A DNA stretch of 64,000 nt from assembly GCF_000621865.1 (NCBI RefSeq), contig NZ_JHXE01000015.1, forward strand, positions 62,001-126,000. The letters are read 5' to 3'. Source of the DNA: Pseudobutyrivibrio sp. MD2005. Lineage in GTDB: Bacteria; Bacillota; Clostridia; Lachnospirales; Lachnospiraceae. A model generated the notes under the pieces. The model did no database searches. It worked only from the letters and a program-made list of their open reading frames with translations, and was not told the origin of the DNA. Made by a program: the position numbers and the translations under genes. Positions 8,740 through 62,880 of this stretch are shown one piece after another. Numbering within the stretch: the first letter of the stretch is position 1; each line of letters opens with the position of its first letter.

Positions 8740-8861
8740 AAATCATCTCCTCCTGTATAGTGTGACATTTTTACTTTTTCAGAACAAATTGTGAGCATAA
8801 TTCTATAAATTTATAATACAATAACGAATGCTAATATTCAAATGGATTTATGTTAAAATTT

Positions 8862-9479
8862 ATTGTTACCATTCACAGTTTATTTTGGAGTGACGCCCTC
8901 AACAAAGGCTGTGGCCTCCAGTATACACATGGCGTGATTTTGCGAATATTGCAGTTTTTCTTATGGGCCAAATTTATGCATCTCGCATGTGTCTTGTTGC
9001 GGAATGAACCATTTTGAAAAATGATTTTTAGGTGGCGGACACTGCAGTTTTTTATGTACTTCTCAGGCTGAGGGGACTTGGTTTCATATTACGCTTGCTA
9101 AGTAACATGACAAAGCAGGTTTTGCATATATAATCACCGTGGCACATTCAACATCGTGTTTTAAGTGACCACTTGCGCTGCCGTCCATGGCAGCGCATGC
9201 TTATATATTGCAAAACCTGCTTTTATGTTACTAAGCTCGCTCCAAAATCAACCAAGTCCCCCTCAGCCTAAGAAGTACAAATTACACCAGACTGTGTGTC
9301 CGCCAACCAAAAACCTTTTTCAAAATTGTACAGGCCTGCAAAAGACACATGTAAATAAAAGATGCATAAATGGCCCATTAGAAAAACGCAATATTCTTGC
9401 AATGCGCCATGTGTATACTGTAGGCCACAGCCTTTGTTGAGGGCGTCATAAATGTGTGGCAACTGTGAATGGTAACAAT
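8862..9479 (-). repeat. Giant palindromic element, copy A (618 bp)
   Basis: The ends ATTGTTACCATTCACAGTT and AACTGTGAATGGTAACAAT are exact inverted repeats, and complementarity continues with bulges to the centre. The tip holds GCGCTGCC-GTCCAT-GGCAGCGC (9175-9196) and a smaller AACA-TCG-TGTT hairpin. Compared with copy C the two arms are swapped: GTTGCGGAATGAACC is on the left here and on the right in C. Copy A therefore lies in reverse orientation to B, C and D. It sits between divergent genes, 122 bp from the cheY-like start and 117 bp from the next gene. Short reading frames inside are by-products of the palindrome. Confidence 0.9.
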
Positions 9480-9596
9480 TTATTGACTTTCAGTATTACT
9501 CCATGGAGTGGGAAATGGGGAATTGCGTCTAGAAAATATAAGGGAAAAAAGCTATAATTATCCTACTATATTGTTTTACATTTGGAGGAAAGAATA

Positions 9597-12287: not shown

Positions 12288-12317
12288 GAACGTTTTATAT
12301 CTACAATGAGCCACAGC

Positions 12318-12342
12318 GCCCCGGATTATTCCGGGGCTTTTT
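12318..12342 (+). terminator. Terminator of the two-component operon
   Basis: GCCCCGG-attatt-CCGGGGC is followed by TTTTT. It lies just before palindromic element B. Confidence 0.88.
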
Positions 12343-12364: not shown

Positions 12365-12950
12365 CAGACAGCCTCGTGCCAAATCCTGGCTTGCTGCGCC
12401 TCCCGCTATAGATACACAATCACAAAATTTTGATTTTCTAAATACTGCATGTCGCGTTCTTTATTAGCAGGTGTTCTTTCGATTCTTTGCAATTCGTGGG
12501 CAAGTGTTTGTGCTGTGCTGACACGCACAGCTTTTATTAATTACTACCAAAGCAGATTCGCAGTATAATTGCATGATTTTGAAATGAGCTTAGTAAAATA
12601 AGAAACAGGTTTTATAAAGTTTATATACGGGGTGCCATGGACGGCACCCCGAGCCTGATAGTGAAACGGACTGAACTTGAAGGCGGTATATAAACTTATA
12701 AAACCTGTTTCTTTAATTTTACTTAGTGAATGGAGTATGAATGCAATTATACTGCAAATCTGTTTGGTAGCAATGTATTTACTTTATAGTGTCAGCACTG
12801 CAACAAACACTTACCCACGAATTGCAAAACCAACGAAAGTACACATGCAGAAAGCTCCATCTGCAGTATTAAGAAAATCTAAAATTTTGCTCAAATGATG
12901 TATCTATAGCGGGAGGCGCAGCAAGCCAGAACATAGCACGAGGCTGTCTG
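12365..12950 (+). repeat. Giant palindromic element, copy B (586 bp)
   Basis: The ends CAGACAGCCTCGTGC and GCACGAGGCTGTCTG are exact inverted repeats, and imperfect pairing runs to the centre. The tip is GGGGTGCC-ATGGAC-GGCACCCC (12629-12650). It sits between two terminators that face each other (12318-12342 plus strand, 12971-12997 minus strand), so it is outside both flanking transcription units. The inner 153 bp (12589-12741) are identical to 40836-40988 of copy D, while the outer arms have diverged. Small reading frames within it are not credible genes. Confidence 0.9.
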
Positions 12951-12970
12951 ATTTAAGGTGATGGGTGGCG

Positions 12971-12997
12971 CAAAAAGCCCTGCCGCTAGGGCAGGGC
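12971..12997 (-). terminator. Terminator of the citrate synthase gene
   Basis: Read on the minus strand: GCCCTGCC-ctagc-GGCAGGGC followed by TTTTT, 13 bp after the stop codon. Confidence 0.87.
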
Positions 12998-13009
12998 GCT
13001 GTGGCGTTG

Positions 13010-16459: not shown

Positions 16460-16490
16460 TGCAGGTAGTAAAGATACCGAATTAAAACTA

Positions 16491-16665
16491 ACCTGGGATG
16501 TACGATTTAACTTATCCTTTTTGAACCTACATTTACTTTAAACGGAATGCCTATATTTCTAGTTGGCTGTCATGCCTCCATTGCGCAGTGGAAGACAAAA
16601 GACTAGTTGCGGCGATCCACCTAGCTAGAGCTAGGAGTCAATTGATAGGCCCGGCATTTTGGGGT
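16491..16665 (+). ncRNA. ssrS: 6S RNA (RNA polymerase-regulating RNA)
   Basis: A non-coding stretch of about 175 nt that folds as one long rod with a large central bubble. The closing stem is ACCTGGGATG with CATTTTGGGGT. The stem beyond the bubble is GCCTAT/ATAGGC, then CTAGT/ACTAG and the apical CCATTGCGCAGTGG hairpin with the flanking TGTCATGCCTC and AAGACAAAAGAC strings. A small hairpin CCTAGC-taga-GCTAGG lies in the 3' side of the bubble. This arrangement and the conserved strings fit Firmicutes 6S RNA, which mimics an open promoter to bind sigma-A polymerase. The 5' end is not fixed. A terminator follows directly. A covariance-model search would confirm it. Confidence 0.78.
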
Positions 16666-16668
16666 AGT

Positions 16669-16700
16669 AGAGACCATGCTTTGCATGGTCTCTTTTCTTT
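16669..16700 (+). terminator. Terminator of the 6S-like RNA
   Basis: AGAGACCATG-ctttg-CATGGTCTCT followed by a T-rich run; a 10-bp perfect stem. Confidence 0.92.
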
Positions 16701-33061: not shown

Positions 33062-33677
33062 TTGTTACAATTCGCAGTATTTTAAGGCCTTGCCCCCACG
33101 TGCTGCCCGCCGGTTCACACACAGGGGCATTGCATGAATATTGCGTTTTTCTAATGGGCCATTTATGCATCTTTATTTACATGTGTCTTTTGCAGGCCTG
33201 TACAGTTTGAAAAAATGTATGTAAGGGGCGAACACCATGAGCTTTGTGGAATATATTTTAAATAATTTTTGTAGGTAGCTTAGGCGATTTTGAAATGCGC
33301 TTAGAAAAATAGAAACAGGTTTTGCAATATATAGGTATGCGCCGCTACGGATGGCGGCGCAAGTGCGTAAGTGACAGGACGTCACATGGAGCACGGTACC
33401 TATATATGCAAAAACTGATTCGTGCATTTTTCTTAGCAAATGTAATATGAGCCTAAGCTACCTGCAAAGATTTTTAAAATATATTTAGTAATATACTAGT
33501 GTTCGCCCCTGCCACACATTTTTTCAAACGGTTCATTCCGCAACAAGACACATGCGCGATGCATAAAATTGGCCCATAAGGAAAACAGCAATATTCGCAA
33601 AATCACCCCTGTGTGTGAACCGGCGAGCAGCACGGGGAGGGCGGGGCCTTATTGATTGGAGCGGTGAATTTTAACAA
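33062..33677 (+). repeat. Giant palindromic element, copy C (616 bp)
   Basis: The outer ends TTGTTACAATTCGC and (reverse complement) TTGTTAAAATTCAC match those of copy A. Then GGCC, GCTGC, CCGG and ACACAC blocks pair across the element to the centre. The tip carries GCGCCGC-tACGGATg-GCGGCGC (33339-33360) and GTGAC-AGGAC-GTCAC (33371-33385). The internal-loop strings of copy A occur here on the opposite arms, so C lies inverted to A. It fills the divergent gap between the channel genes and the trp promoter. A further hairpin (AACAAGTATA/TATACTTGTT, 33673-33701) overlaps its right edge. Confidence 0.9.
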
Positions 33678-33749: not shown

Positions 33750-34043
33750 AACTTAATAAAGTGTTAAACCGATGAGGGAGAGGAGTACCTCTTTATGATT
33801 CCTTGGAGAGAGCCGTGATGGTGGGATACGGTAGGATAGTGATTTGGGAATGGACTCCTGAGGGCGTGAGGAAATGGATTTGTCCAGAGTATTGCACGAC
33901 GTAAGGCACACGTTAGTTGCCAGGGATATGATGGTATCCTGATAAGCGCATAGGTTGTCCTATGAATTCAAGGTGGCACCGCGGATTATATGATTATTCG
34001 TCCTTGATAGAAACTGTTAATGGTTTCTATCAAGGACTTTTTT
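33750..34043 (+). ncRNA. T-box riboswitch, tRNA(Trp)-sensing, with terminator
   Basis: A T-box leader. Stem I includes the AGAGGAGTACCTCT region, and the specifier loop reads GGGAATGGACTCC with codon UGG (Trp) at 33851-33853. The T-box sequence AAGGTGGCACCGCGG is at 33970-33984; its UGGC bulge pairs with the uncharged tRNA acceptor end. The terminator GTCCTTGATAGAAAC/GTTTCTATCAAGGAC (34000-34037) is followed by T6. Uncharged tRNA(Trp) should favour the antiterminator and switch on the trp genes. The specifier fits the operon exactly. Confidence 0.95.
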
Positions 34044-40587: not shown

Positions 40588-41219
40588 CGCCCGGCCCATG
40601 GCCCTGCCACGCTTCCACAAAAGCACCGGCCCTGCCCGCCCCGTCCTTAGGCTGTGACAGTTCGACATCGCCTGCGGTTTAAGATTATCTAGGTGCCAAG
40701 AGTCGCATTTTTTATTGTGCGTGTTCTTTAAATTCTTTGCAATTCGGCAGTCGCAGTATGCTAGACACAGACACACTAAAACTTATTAATGTCACCAATA
40801 CAATCTTAGGAATAATTGCGTGATTTTGGAGTGAACTTAGTAAAATAAGAAACAGGTTTTATAAAGTTTATATACGGGGTGCCATGGACGGCACCCCGAG
40901 CCTGATAGTGAAACGGACTGAACTTGAAGGCGGTATATAAACTTATAAAACCTGTTTCTTTAATTTTACTTAGTGAATGGAGTATGAACGCAATTATCCT
41001 AAGCATTGTTTGGTGACTGTTAATCTAGAATCACAAGTGTCTGTGTCTAGCATACAGTGACTTTGAATTGCAAAACCAATTAAAGGACACGCACTTAATG
41101 CTCCCTTTTGGCACCAAGATAATCTAAAAACCTTGCGAAATTGTCTCCATGGCACAAGCCTGAGGGCGAGGCGGGCAGGGCCGGCGCAAACAAATACTGG
41201 CGGGGCCAGGGGCCGGGCG
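40588..41219 (+). repeat. Giant palindromic element, copy D (632 bp)
   Basis: Pairing runs from CGCCCGGCCC (left end) and its partner at the right end through GCCGGCCCTGCCCGCC, AGATTATCT-GGTGCC and TGCTAGACACAGACAC to the tip GGGGTGCC-ATGGAC-GGCACCCC (40876-40897). The internal loop ATTCTTTGCAATTC (40732-40745) against GAATTGCAAAACCAA (41065-41079) is kept in copies B and E. The outer arms are GC-rich, the inner part AT-rich. It starts 4 bp after the trpG stop and ends about 80 bp before the ansA leader peptide, so it may end the trp transcript or be cut from it. Confidence 0.92.
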
Positions 41220-50210: not shown

Positions 50211-50808
50211 CTGCTCGTGTATGGCTCCTGCTGTAGGCACAGCTCCTCACCCGCCCTGGCTCCTGTGGGTGATTTCGCGAAGCATTTAGATTATCTTGGT
50301 GCCAAAATGGAGCATAAAGTGTGTGTCCTTTAATTGGTTTTGCAGTTCTGCCGTCATTGTATGTACTGACGCAGACACATGTAGATTTACAAATATAGTC
50401 ACCAAACAATGCTTAGGATAATTGCGCTCATACTCCGTTCACTAAGAAAAATTACGAAGCAGATTTTGAATATATATCTATCGTGCTCCATGCGACGTCC
50501 TGTCGCTTACGCACTTACGCCGCCGTCCATGGCGGCGTATAGCTATATATTTCAAAATCTGCTTCTATTTTTCTAAGTTCACTACAAATGTCACGCAATT
50601 ATTCCTAAGATTGTATTGGTGACTGTTATATTACGTGTGGTGTGTCTGCGTGGTACATACTATGACGGCAGAATTGCAAAGAATTTAAAGAACACACACC
50701 ATAAAAATGCGACATTGGCACCTAGATAATCTTATGCTGAAGGCGATGCCCACAGGAGCCAGGGCGGGTGAGGAGCTGTGCCTACAGCAGTACTAGTACA
50801 CTGAGCAG
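50211..50808 (-). repeat. Giant palindromic element, copy E (598 bp)
   Basis: A long perfect block at the base (CTGCTGTAGGCACAGCTCC and beyond, 42 bp with its partner) is followed by imperfect pairing through AGATTATCT-GGTGCC to the tip. The tip holds GCGAC-GTCCT-GTCGC (50492-50506) and CGCCGCC-GTCCAT-GGCGGCG (50518-50537). Arm-specific internal-loop strings match copies B and D on the opposite strand, so E is inverted to them. It begins 3 bp after the GTPase stop codon with no other terminator in sight. Confidence 0.92.
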
Positions 50809-53151: not shown

Positions 53152-53157
53152 TATAAT
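53152..53157 (+). promoter_or_regulatory. -10 box (TATAAT) before the cobalamin riboswitch
   Basis: A perfect TATAAT lies 12 bp before the aptamer. The upstream pair TTGACA (53110-53115) and TATTTT (53133-53138) with 17-bp spacing is an alternative promoter. Confidence 0.5.
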
Positions 53158-53168
53158 TCATAGGATTT

Positions 53169-53325
53169 AGGTGCCCTAGGTTATTGTTTTTATAATGCAT
53201 GGGTGAAAAGGGAATCTGGTGAGAATCCAGAACGAAGCCGTCACTGTGTTAGGGAGTGCATTTTTGTATCACTGAGTTAAATTGGGAAGAAAAGATGCAT
53301 GTTGATCGAAGTCAGGAGACCTGCC
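53169..53325 (+). ncRNA. Cobalamin riboswitch aptamer
   Basis: It contains the B12-box pattern: GGTGCC at the 5' side, then GGGTGAAAAGGGAATCTGGTGAGAATCCAGAACGAAGCCGTCACTGTG split over stems P3-P6, and the 3' part GATCGAAGTCAGGAGACCTGCC that pairs back. It stands before genes for cobalt/corrinoid handling and cobalamin synthesis, as expected. A terminator at 53419 forms the expression platform. A reading frame starting inside it at 53256 is not real. Confidence 0.93.
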
Positions 53326-53418
53326 TATTTCTTGTAATTTTGATTTGCGGAACTCGAATCATTATTATTATGAAGCAAAGGGAGCCTTATGACTCCTCAA
53401 GTTTTGTGATTGATTTTG

Positions 53419-60538: not shown

Positions 60539-61627
60539 ATGAAAAAAGGCTTCACCACAGGCAGTTGTGCGGCAGCCGCAGCAAAAGCGGCAACTTATAT
60601 GCTATTGTCTGGAATTGAAAAGCTAAATATTGAAATAGAGACTCCTGCCGGGGTTATGTTTAATGCAAAAATCGTAGATATCGACAGGCAGGAAAGTAGC
60701 GTCAGCTGTGCTGTGATAAAGGATGGAGGAGACGATCCGGATGTTACAACAGGAAGCCATGTGGTGGCCACAGTTTCTGCACTGGAGTCAAAGGATACAG
60801 GAAGGGCTCATATAGTAATTGATGGTGGAACAGGCGTTGGCAGGGTGACTCTCCCAGGGCTTGATCAGCCTGTGGGCAATGCAGCAATCAATCATGTTCC
60901 GAGGGAGATGATTGAAAAGGAAGTGCTTGAAGTTTGTAGTCTTTTTGATTACTGCGGAAAGCTTACGGTAGAGATATCGGTGCCAGAAGGTGAAGAGCTG
61001 GCTGCCCGTACCTTTAATCCTAGACTTGGAATAGTGGGAGGCATCTCCATTCTTGGCACTACAGGTATAGTAGAGCCTATGAGTGCAAAAGCACTTGTTG
61101 ATACAATTAAAGTTGAGCTTTCCCAAAAGAAGGCTTTGGGGAACAAGACTGTATTTGTAACCCCAGGCAACTATGGCTTGAAGTTTATGAAAGACAATTA
61201 CAACTATGATTTGGATAAAAGTGTAAAGTGTTCAAACTTCATAGGCGAGACTGTGGACATGGTTTGCAACATGGGCTTTGAATGTATGTGTATCACAGGA
61301 CATATTGGAAAGCTGGTCAAGGTGGCAGGTGGTATTATGAATACTCATTCCCACGAAGCAGATTCCCGAATGGAAATCCTAGCCAGTTGTGCCATAAGAG
61401 CAGGAGCCGATGCTGATTTGGCTCGAAAAATACTTGATTGTCTAAATACTGAAGAAGCTCTGCACATTATAGAAGATGCGGGCCTTCTTAAAGCAACAAT
61501 GGATATAGTTTTAGAAAAGATTCTGTTTTATCTGGACTTCAGAGCTCAGGAAAGAATCAAGATAGAGTGCATGTTGTATTCCAATGAGTTTGGGTTACTT
61601 GCAGTGTCAGAAGGCTTCCCTCTTTAG
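60539..61627 (+). CDS. cbiD: Cobalt-precorrin-5B (C1)-methyltransferase
   Basis: CbiD methylates C1 in the anaerobic pathway. The 362-aa protein begins with the typical KKGFTTGSCAAAAAKAA, then has GDDPDVTTGSHV, GTGVGRVTLPGLDQPVGNAAINHVPREMI, and GNYGLKFMKD. The C-terminal VSEGFPL lies inside a repeat (61613-61661), so the normal end has been replaced or extended by inserted DNA. GGGAGGC precedes the ATG. Confidence 0.95.
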   Translation: MKKGFTTGSCAAAAAKAATYMLLSGIEKLNIEIETPAGVMFNAKIVDIDRQESSVSCAVIKDGGDDPDVTTGSHVVATVSALESKDTGRAHIVIDGGTGVGRVTLPGLDQPVGNAAINHVPREMIEKEVLEVCSLFDYCGKLTVEISVPEGEELAARTFNPRLGIVGGISILGTTGIVEPMSAKALVDTIKVELSQKKALGNKTVFVTPGNYGLKFMKDNYNYDLDKSVKCSNFIGETVDMVCNMGFECMCITGHIGKLVKVAGGIMNTHSHEADSRMEILASCAIRAGADADLARKILDCLNTEEALHIIEDAGLLKATMDIVLEKILFYLDFRAQERIKIECMLYSNEFGLLAVSEGFPL

Positions 61628-61661
61628 GGGGAAGCTGTCAGCGCAGCTGACTGATGAGGGT
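61613..61661 (-). repeat. Short structured repeat, left copy flanking the DUF559 gene
   Basis: Read on the minus strand: ACCCTCATCAGTCAGCTG, CGCTGACAGCTTCCCC, then AGAGGGAAGCC. The copy at 62079-62126 has the same sequence in the opposite orientation with a few changes. CAGCTG-CG-C style pairs (GTCAGC/GCTGAC) make an internal hairpin. It supplies the last seven codons and stop of cbiD. Confidence 0.82.
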
Positions 61662-61689
61662 AGGATAATGCCGCAATGAAAGGAATAAT

Positions 61690-62046
61690 ATGCCTAAAAT
61701 AGACCCTAAATTAAAACAATATTCTAGATCACTTAGAAAAGATATGACAAAAGAGGAGAGACATCTTTGGTATGACTTTTTAAAGTCTTATCCTGTTACA
61801 ATAAAAAGACAAAAAGTGTTTGATAAATATATAGTAGATTTTTATTGTCCTAGTGCAAAAATAGTTATTGAACTTGATGGAAATCAACACTATGAAGCTG
61901 AAGGGCATTCCGCTGATTTAGTTAGGGATAAATATTTATCTGATTTAGGAATTAAGATACTTAGATATTCAAACTATGATATAAATAATAATTTCATAGT
62001 TGTATGTGAAGATATAGATAATAATATAAAAGCTAGAACAAATTGA
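61690..62046 (+). CDS. DUF559 endonuclease-like protein
   Basis: A 118-aa protein of the DUF559 family, which has a Vsr/PD-(D/E)xK-like nuclease fold. Visible elements are the helical LRKDMTKEERHLWYDFLKS start, the metal-site-like DKYIVDFYCPSAKIVIELDGNQHYE near residues 45-70, and KYLSDLGIKILRYSNYDI. It interrupts the cobalamin operon between cbiD and cobM and is flanked by inverted copies of a 49-bp repeat. It is more A+T-rich than its neighbours. Both points suggest a mobile cassette. DNA cleavage is inferred from the fold only. Confidence 0.88.
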   Translation: MPKIDPKLKQYSRSLRKDMTKEERHLWYDFLKSYPVTIKRQKVFDKYIVDFYCPSAKIVIELDGNQHYEAEGHSADLVRDKYLSDLGIKILRYSNYDINNNFIVVCEDIDNNIKARTN

Positions 62047-62058
62047 GAGGATTATTAT

Positions 62059-62880
62059 ATGCAAAACAGTTTTGATACACCCTCATCAGTCACCTATGGT
62101 GACAGCTTCTCCCAGAGGGAGAAGCCGCTTGTTTATTTCGTTGGAGCCGGCTGTGGTGCAGCCGATTTAATTACAGTAAGAGGTATGCGATTGTTGCAGC
62201 ATGCAGATGTGATTGTATATGCAGGCTCGCTTGTAAATCCAGAGCTTTTGGATTATGCAAAGAGAGGCTGTGAGGTATACAACAGTGCAGTTATGACACT
62301 GGAGGAAGTAATGATTGTAATGATTGCAGCAGCCAAGGCTGGCAAAATGGTAGTAAGGCTTCACACAGGCGAGCCAAGCATTTATGGCGCTGTTCAAGAG
62401 CAGATGCTGATATTGGATGAAAATGGCATACCATATGAAAGCTGCCCTGGCGTTAGTGCCTGCTTTGGTGCAGCAGCAAGTCTGAATTTAGAATATACAT
62501 TGCCTGATGTAAGTCAGACATTAATTATCACAAGAATGGCAGGCCGCACAGCTGTGCCGGAGAAGGAATCCATCGAGCGACTTGCAGCACATAATGCATC
62601 CATGGCCATCTACCTTAGCAGTGGAATGATGGAAAAATTATCACGAGCATTGACGAATGGTGGATATTCAAAAGATACTCCAGCTGCAATTGTTTATAAA
62701 GCCACATGGCCAGATGAACAAAAATATATTTGCACAGTTGGAACCCTTGCGCAAACTGCAATGGAGCACGGAATCAAGAATTTGGCAGTTGTTTTAGTGG
62801 GAAATGTGATTTCTAAATCAGGTTTCTCTCTATCAAAGCTATATGACCCTGAATTTGAAACAGGCTATAGAAAGATATGA
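62059..62880 (+). CDS. cobM: Cobalt-precorrin-4 C11-methyltransferase
   Basis: CobM/CbiF methylates C11. The 273-aa protein has the SAM-methylase pattern FVGAGCGAADLITVRGMRLL, ADVIVYAGSLVNPELL, VVRLHTGEPSIYGAVQEQ and CPGVSACFGAAASLNLEYTLP. Normal proteins start almost at the first of these motifs. Here about 25 extra residues (MQNSFDTPSSVTYGDSFSQRE) are encoded mainly by the right-hand repeat (62079-62126), read in frame. GAGAGGATT precedes the ATG. A later internal start is possible but has no better site. Confidence 0.92.
   Translation: MQNSFDTPSSVTYGDSFSQREKPLVYFVGAGCGAADLITVRGMRLLQHADVIVYAGSLVNPELLDYAKRGCEVYNSAVMTLEEVMIVMIAAAKAGKMVVRLHTGEPSIYGAVQEQMLILDENGIPYESCPGVSACFGAAASLNLEYTLPDVSQTLIITRMAGRTAVPEKESIERLAAHNASMAIYLSSGMMEKLSRALTNGGYSKDTPAAIVYKATWPDEQKYICTVGTLAQTAMEHGIKNLAVVLVGNVISKSGFSLSKLYDPEFETGYRKI
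62079..62126 (+). repeat. Short structured repeat, right copy flanking the DUF559 gene, inside cobM
   Basis: ACCCTCATCAGTCACCTA, TGGTGACAGCTTCTCCC, AGAGGGAGAAGCC. It is the inverted partner of 61613-61661, with GTCACC/GGTGAC and CTTCTCCC/GGGAGAAG inner stems. The stem bases differ between the copies in a paired way (CAGCTG...GCTGAC against CACCTA...GGTGAC), so the hairpin is kept. It is translated in frame as part of the cobM N-terminus. Confidence 0.85.

Follow-up and report, generated by a model that had tools for sequence, protein, structure and literature searches.

The hairpin at 12629-12650 of the window (the whole 64,000-nucleotide stretch of Pseudobutyrivibrio sp. MD2005 DNA that was analysed) corresponds to helix P1 of TwoAYGGAY (RF01731), a known motif. 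In the explanation that we favor and regard as likely, this motif tops a MITE-like palindrome, the stems being matched by DNA copying and the loops being selected as CsrA sites.

Motif identity and the mobile palindromes

The features of element B and the four other giant elements of the window are as follows.

12365..12950, no strand assigned: palindromic element B, an imperfect palindrome of 586 bp as detected
12578..12738, plus strand: RF01731 TwoAYGGAY match at the apex of palindrome B, 59.5 bits (gathering score 43)
12629..12650, plus strand: P1 hairpin of copy B, with the hexaloop AUGGAC closed by C-G on a stem of 8 bp
12653..12684, plus strand: P2 hairpin region of copy B, second loop ACGGAC at 12666-12671 on a weak stem
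8865..9476, no strand assigned: element A, 612 bp between terminal repeats GTTACCATTCACAG
9086-9247, minus strand: RF01731 apex of element A
33093..33640, no strand assigned: palindromic element C, outer arms as detected, with its RF01731 apex at 33289-33447 (plus strand)
40623..41187, no strand assigned: palindromic element D, outer arms as detected, with its RF01731 apex at 40824-40985 (plus strand)
50217..50801, no strand assigned: palindromic element E, outer arms as detected, with its RF01731 apex at 50430-50589 (minus strand)

The Rfam scan of the window resulted in five RF01731 matches, one per giant element and all above the gathering score, with copy B aligned over model positions 1-168 of 168 and the other copies scoring 62.2-73.2 bits. 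Since B and D share 97% identity across 189 nt, these five copies amount to approximately four independent ones. In copy B, P1 consists of the stem halves GGGGTGCC (12629-12636) and GGCACCCC (12643-12650) around the loop ATGGAC (12637-12642). The loops and stems given in the original prediction were recovered on the motif strand, where P1 reads ATGGAC in A, B, D, and E and ACGGAT, with a T.G closing pair, in C. The second small loop is ACGGAC on a weak stem in B and D, AGGAC in C and E, and lacks GGA in A; it had been described as AGGAC in C, which is correct, and as GUCCU in E, which is the opposite strand of an AGGAC loop. The table entry for this motif in Weinberg et al. 2010 reads y / n / n, which marks it as probably an RNA and probably not cis-regulatory, with the third column of that table taken to mean "switch" (PMC2864571). 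A match to the microRNA family RF04097 scored far below its gathering threshold and was rejected as a generic palindrome match. The same Rfam scan placed a T-box leader at 33763-34008, a cobalamin riboswitch at 53152-53342, and 6S RNA at 16487-16669.

The outer arms of element B (12365-12416 and 12899-12950) are 92% complementary, and the element folded as RNA reaches -315 kcal/mol, with z = -30 over 20 shuffles. Its own genome (G000, 3.09 Mb) holds 49 RF01731 matches vs. 0 in 14 control genomes, and the motif is present in 27 of 29 genus genomes. Palindrome spans measured by strict arm alignment have a median of 585 bp among the 49 own copies and exceed 480 bp in 44 of these, in L041 through the outer arms alone; the span is at least 480 bp in 60 of the 81 copies retrieved from further species of the genus. 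Across 104 full-length elements the arms are 88% Watson-Crick paired. The 20 loci from other Lachnospiraceae genera have shorter palindromes, of 147-392 bp, and the long arms therefore look like a Pseudobutyrivibrio-specific trait. Two further loci in G000, L103 and L104, carry both terminal repeats around a middle of unresolved sequence, hence without an RF01731 match, so that the real copy number is probably at least 51. Searches of phage and plasmid collections for copies of element B gave no match in either. For 49 of the 104 full-length elements, a blastn comparison (E 1e-4) of the left arm's outermost 70 bp gave no match to any other element; these locus-specific ends are still part of their own element's palindrome.

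Signs of insertion are seen at element A, which has GTTACCATTCACAG at both ends and AATTTATT outside it on each side.

8857..8864, no strand assigned: left 8-bp target-site duplication of element A (AATTTATT)
9477..9484, no strand assigned: right 8-bp target-site duplication of element A (AATTTATT)

We compared this site with a set of 25 related loci, 24 from Pseudobutyrivibrio and one from Butyrivibrio fibrisolvens 16/4. Both flanking genes were found in 24 of the 25, copy A was absent from all 24, and the gap between the matched gene ends was 160-253 bp in every one of them vs. 842 bp in the window. Among the 104 full-length elements, 25 have GTTACCATTCACAG at both ends (at most 2 mismatches), the rest having different or unrecognised ends. 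Eight of these 25 two-ended elements are flanked by target duplications matching at 7 or more of 8 bases, compared to 3 of 600 mismatched flank pairings; L123 and L135 being the same site in two species, the eight represent seven independent insertions. At the site of copy B, nine related loci retain both neighbours, with a gap of 57-138 bp in five and 606-999 bp in four.

Several other inserts were seen. At the site of element B, between the histidine kinase and citrate synthase genes, the four loci with the long gap (L063, L066, L071, and L077) carry palindromic inserts without RF01731, with ends like GGGACTGTGGC..GCCACAGTCCC in the first three and more degenerate ends in L077, and these apparently belong to a different insert family. 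In P. ruminis DSM 9787 (L065) a related element with the end CCACCATCCACAG starts 3' of the histidine kinase gene and is cut by the contig end. At 61627-62113 of the window, 35-bp inverted repeats (86% complementary) surround a gene for a 118-aa DUF559 (PF04480) protein, possibly a small mobile cassette.

The G000 list of ends (at most 2 mismatches) contained no gene-sized pair, and the exact end 16-mer occurred only once outside G000 in the 29 genus genomes. Limited searches, including the open frames near three odd ends, returned no transposase with these ends. We call the elements MITE-like rather than MITEs because no partner transposase with the same ends was found in these searches.

Covariation and in-place rewriting of tip and arms

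We aligned 48 tips, sampled at genus, family, and class level. Standard pairs occupy 93.4% of the P1 cells, and both sides vary in 7 of the 8 P1 pairs. With P1 and P2 combined, 184 cells were changed on both sides vs. 46.8 in shuffles, and the covariation score was 0.684 vs. 0.162, with 0 of 500 shuffles reaching either value; sliding the pairing by 1-3 columns lowered the score to 0.06-0.20 (maximum 0.196). Two cruder measures did not stand clearly above the shuffles, namely the number of pairs in which both sides vary (12 vs. 11.3 shuffled, reached by 217 of 500) and the number of further pair types (37 vs. 34.2 shuffled, reached by 93 of 500). The pattern first noticed in the window, a kept loop on a rewritten stem, thus holds across the 48 tips, with seven of eight P1 pairs changing around a near-constant loop.

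The arms behave in the same way. In counts over element pairs, which are not independent of one another, elements 80-90% identical (463 pairs) showed 4079 Watson-Crick doubles vs. 2212 single mismatches, those at 70-80% identity 4499 doubles vs. 1071 singles, and those at 90% identity or more 360 doubles vs. 512 singles. The covariation is therefore real but general, spanning the tip and both arms of the ~600-bp palindrome.

In a selected single-stranded RNA, G.U pairs should be tolerated and A.C mismatches should not, which gives a means of separating selection on an RNA fold from copying of a DNA palindrome. Arm mismatches in the own genome divided into 179 G.T and 169 A.C, and those in the other species of the genus into 302 and 315, counts that contain no G.U excess; the joint tip alignment gave 64:61. 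The same treatment applied to 6S RNA of the same genus resulted in 192:0. In P1 only 3 G.U cells were found across 48 sequences and 8 pairs. Tips folded separately gave 39 G.T to 16 A.C in the genus and 16 to 9 in other genera, with a consensus fold that itself favours G.U, and their distinct mismatch types numbered 13:13 and 13:8, respectively. The most divergent element pairs, again not independent, showed 344 G.T vs. 167 A.C. On the strength of this last count and of the G.T excess in the separately folded tips, the tip may be under some RNA-level selection; nothing of the kind is apparent in the arms.

These counts bear on the original prediction, which had taken kept loops on rewritten stems as the mark of selection on a folded single strand. 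The rewritten stems do not by themselves carry that meaning, since the same covariation is found in the DNA arms without a G.U excess, and the reading is further weakened by the observation that compensations come in tracts at fixed insertion sites. The latter was seen by comparing the flanks of 130 elements, which identified insertions common to two or more species. Fifteen orthologous pairs were compared in apex orientation, and changes made in place were counted in the seven non-redundant comparisons with an element identity above 0.91, L128/L143 being left out because its doubles are the same as those of L137/L143. These seven close comparisons contained 50 singles and 12 compensated doubles, where 0.16 doubles are expected by chance. 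Nine of the 12 doubles lie no more than 10 bp from another (permutation p 0.00035), and the compensated changes include transversion types. Between L137 and L143, a comparison based on one matching flank only, five rewritten pairs fall inside 10 bp. In L121 and L134, at an orthologous site of G006 and G010, approximately 50-60 bp of both outer arms differ jointly, with a nearly identical core and flanks ~97% identical.

Matches of both flanks yielded 14 element pairs at nine sites, and at six of these sites the apex orientation differs between species. Two are clear in-place apex inversions (L128/L137 and L112/L113, elements 98% identical), three involve elements only ~75% identical that may be separate insertions, and the sixth is ambiguous (L129 and L122 vs. 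L134 and L140). In the elements at the six sites, perfect complementarity extends over at most 16-42 nt, which makes confusion of the assembler over orientation possible but not likely. Template switching between inverted repeats is reported to produce both arm homogenisation and spacer inversion (PMC8604942), and multi-base compensatory changes in RNA genes are explained by template switching (PMC8794818). Template switching between the arms probably explains the rewriting better than selection on the fold.

Loop conservation, CsrA, and transcription context

Over the 48 tips the six positions of the P1 loop read A(48), C23/T18/A4, G46, G47, A47, and T28/C17/G3; the closing pair is C46/T2 with G48, and each of the next seven pairs occurs as three or four Watson-Crick types. 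GGA is present in the P1 loop of 45 of the 48 tips and in the P2 region of 39, the nine without it in P2 including window copy A, and the strict AYGGAY hexamer is found in P1 of 37. Counts over 63 genus tips gave 120 occurrences of A.GGA on the motif strand vs. 3 on the opposite strand, and 61 of CA.GGA.G vs. 0. All eight loci read from the class sample contain CA.GGA.G, five of them twice; five of the eight lie outside the family, and three of those five have it twice. Clostridia outside the family have loops such as GACAUGGAUGUC and CCACGGAUGG. The loop C-ANGGAN-G is thus nearly invariant across the sampled Clostridia while most stem pairs vary, although this conservation is partly one of ascertainment because the search model contains the loop.

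In its sequence the loop resembles a CsrA/RsmE site, which is a loop closed by C-G. The idea is not new: in the RMfam paper, TwoAYGGAY is proposed as a CsrA-binding RNA and GGA hairpins are described as generally paired, since CsrA is a dimer (PMC4333381). Of the two roles that had been suggested for the adjacent loops, a binding partner is the better reading, with CsrA as the candidate on the basis of the motif, the co-occurrence with csrA described below, and that published proposal (PMC4333381). The other role, a loop-loop contact, does not fit, as both loops read GGA(C) on one strand and are not mutually complementary; kissing between P1 and P2 was rejected on the same ground, the GUCC loops belonging to the opposite strand. 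The loops are probably under selection, and their sequence points to CsrA as a likely partner.

G000 has a csrA gene at C1:229517-229672, whose product, 73 aa as read, hits PF02599 with 1.4e-26 and shows sequence similarity to carbon storage regulators of solved structure. We examined co-occurrence in 397 Lachnospiraceae genomes and in 319 genomes of the class outside the family, using Infernal with strict filters and 6-8 candidates scored per genome, in samples where several genomes are incomplete. In Lachnospiraceae, csrA was found in 62 of 65 genomes with RF01731 vs. 148 of 332 without it (p 4e-16), and in the class without Lachnospiraceae in 22 of 27 vs. 74 of 292 (p 1e-8), or 14 of 18 vs. 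82 of 301 (p 2e-5) when only matches over the gathering score are counted; all of these p-values overstate independence because the genomes are related. Three of the 65 RF01731 genomes in the family lack csrA (G195 and G385, drafts of ~110 and ~300 contigs, and G346, a single contig), as do 5 of the 27 outside it. Flagellin is present in 64 of the 65, and csrA is consequently not separable from flagella and motility in this sample; the informative genomes are too few, with seven having flagellin and no csrA (two with RF01731) and four having csrA and no flagellin (none with RF01731).

Within G000, the locus L105 (C1:229000-239000) has the order fliW-csrA, an element copy, and flagellar genes including fliD and fliS, with the unpaired right end of another element further downstream. 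The copy directly 3' of fliW-csrA (L051) is one of 49 and its position may be chance; at a roughly estimated ~4% for such an event given 49 copies, it was not counted as evidence.

Copy B lies between the terminator-like sites of its two convergent neighbour genes.

12318..12337, plus strand: terminator-like site (intrinsic) following the histidine kinase gene, immediately beyond element B
12977..12997, minus strand: terminator-like site (intrinsic) following the citrate synthase gene, immediately beyond element B

Copy B contains one promoter-like site vs. 1.7 expected in shuffles. Among 112 elements with callable neighbours, the motif strand runs with co-directional genes in 31 cases and against them in 38, and 29 elements lie in convergent and 14 in divergent gaps; the motif strand is unbiased relative to the flanking genes. 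Given this balance and the terminators of copy B, many copies may never be transcribed in a useful orientation. The two terminators flanking element B (12300-12340 and 12970-13000) have GCCACAGCGCCC in common, in inverted arrangement and with different inner stems. The same inverted arrangement, with CACATTGCCCC, is found in the flanks of L057, and both sets may be duplicated or rewritten terminators. These common words in the flanks of B and L057 also raised the idea that arms might grow outward through copying of host flanks.

Proposed mechanism, alternatives, and known systems

Taken together, these results lead us to infer template switching as the mechanism of rewriting, CsrA binding by the loops, and sponge action of any transcribed copies. 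The element, which is palindromic, if imperfectly, over its full length of ~600 bp, bears terminal inverted repeats, is flanked by 8-bp target duplications, and has RF01731 at its apex, would be a non-autonomous mobile element. One arm would repeatedly template the other, by template switching or arm-to-arm conversion, such that the stems of tip and arms stay complementary, and the same templating would invert the apex at fixed sites. Purifying selection would hold the loops as a CsrA site pair, C-A-N-G-G-A-N-G on short stems, with one pair per CsrA dimer. A copy transcribed from outside in the motif orientation would then give a long RNA hairpin with two CsrA sites at its end, which could titrate CsrA, the copy number of the element setting the amount of decoy. 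Any sponge action must accordingly come from copies read through in the right orientation. Carried further, this would make the element a transposon-borne RNA sponge, in which a mobile palindrome spreads CsrA decoys in Clostridia, copy number tunes a global regulator, template switching makes the stems self-repairing, and the orientation of the apex acts as a switch; we regard this extension as conceivable but doubtful.

Three other explanations were weighed against the one that we favor. If the elements were a conventional structured ncRNA, selection on the RNA fold would keep arms and tip alike, and the copies would be duplicated CsrB-like sRNA genes. The very stable fold (z -30), P1/P2 covariation well above shuffles in both cells and score, the fit of the loop to the CsrA motif, the 39 G.T vs. 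16 A.C in separately folded genus tips, and the "probably" an RNA of the Weinberg 2010 table (PMC2864571) are all consistent with this. It nevertheless seems unlikely to us, given arms without the G.U excess that reaches 192:0 in 6S RNA, covariation over ~200-250 pairs where a single mismatch would be hardly relevant, compensations arriving in tracts with transversion types included, and insertion with target duplications in a motif orientation that is random relative to genes. Those last properties would be expected of a purely selfish palindromic MITE, in which a transposase or other DNA-binding protein, and not CsrA, reads the loops of extruded hairpins. The terminal repeats and 8-bp duplications, strand-symmetric arm covariation, a patchy and often multi-copy distribution, a motif strand without bias to transcription, and the RF01731 genomes without csrA all agree with such an element, but the conserved part is the CsrA/RsmE consensus with its closing C-G, often present twice, csrA co-occurs in two samples, and the apex is kept in genera with much shorter palindromes, so that we judge this explanation improbable as well.

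The arms might also match only through youth, with the palindrome remade at each transposition and then decaying without any in-place correction. The elements are indeed mobile, and the closest copies have more singles than doubles (512:360 at 90% identity or more, 50:12 among orthologues). Orthologues that have not moved nevertheless contain clustered doubles, 12 where 0.16 are expected, and both outer arms of L121/L134 are rewritten between flanks ~97% identical; we consider this explanation very unlikely. Arm-to-arm copying of a mobile palindrome with selected loops is thus the reading that we retain.

Under this reading, a motif that has been on record since 2010 but has lacked a demonstrated function would gain a home linked to function, and the published proposal of CsrA-sequestering RNAs in Clostridia would gain genome-scale support. 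There is also a warning, in that the strong stem covariation by which a functional RNA is usually proved can arise in DNA palindromes from arm-to-arm copying; the G.T:A.C ratio is a cheap discriminator between RNA selection and such copying. Copies at common sites of known divergence would additionally make bacterial template switching directly measurable.

In the literature searched, which includes few subscription journals, we came across no description of TwoAYGGAY as part of a mobile palindrome. The motif itself is that of RF01731 (Weinberg et al. 2010), with an AYGGAY-type loop and all window copies over the gathering score; whereas Rfam models 168 nt and types the family as cis-regulatory, here it is usually the apex of a ~600-bp mobile palindrome. 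Like the sRNAs CsrB, CsrC, and RsmX/Y/Z, with which a relation is already proposed for TwoAYGGAY in the RMfam paper (PMC4333381), the elements have GGA-loop hairpins that are usually paired, but they are mobile DNA dispersed in as many as 49 copies, and no apex has more than two such loops. Bacterial MITEs are similarly short and non-coding, with terminal inverted repeats, 8-bp duplications, and many intergenic copies, but the present element is palindromic over its full length, its apex is kept across Clostridia, and its arms are re-matched in place. Finally, arm homogenisation, multi-base compensations, and spacer inversion are held in common with template-switch homogenisation as described earlier (PMC8794818; PMC8604942), where the systems are short repeats in yeast genes and the stems of RNA genes, whereas here it is a mobile bacterial palindrome of ~600 bp.
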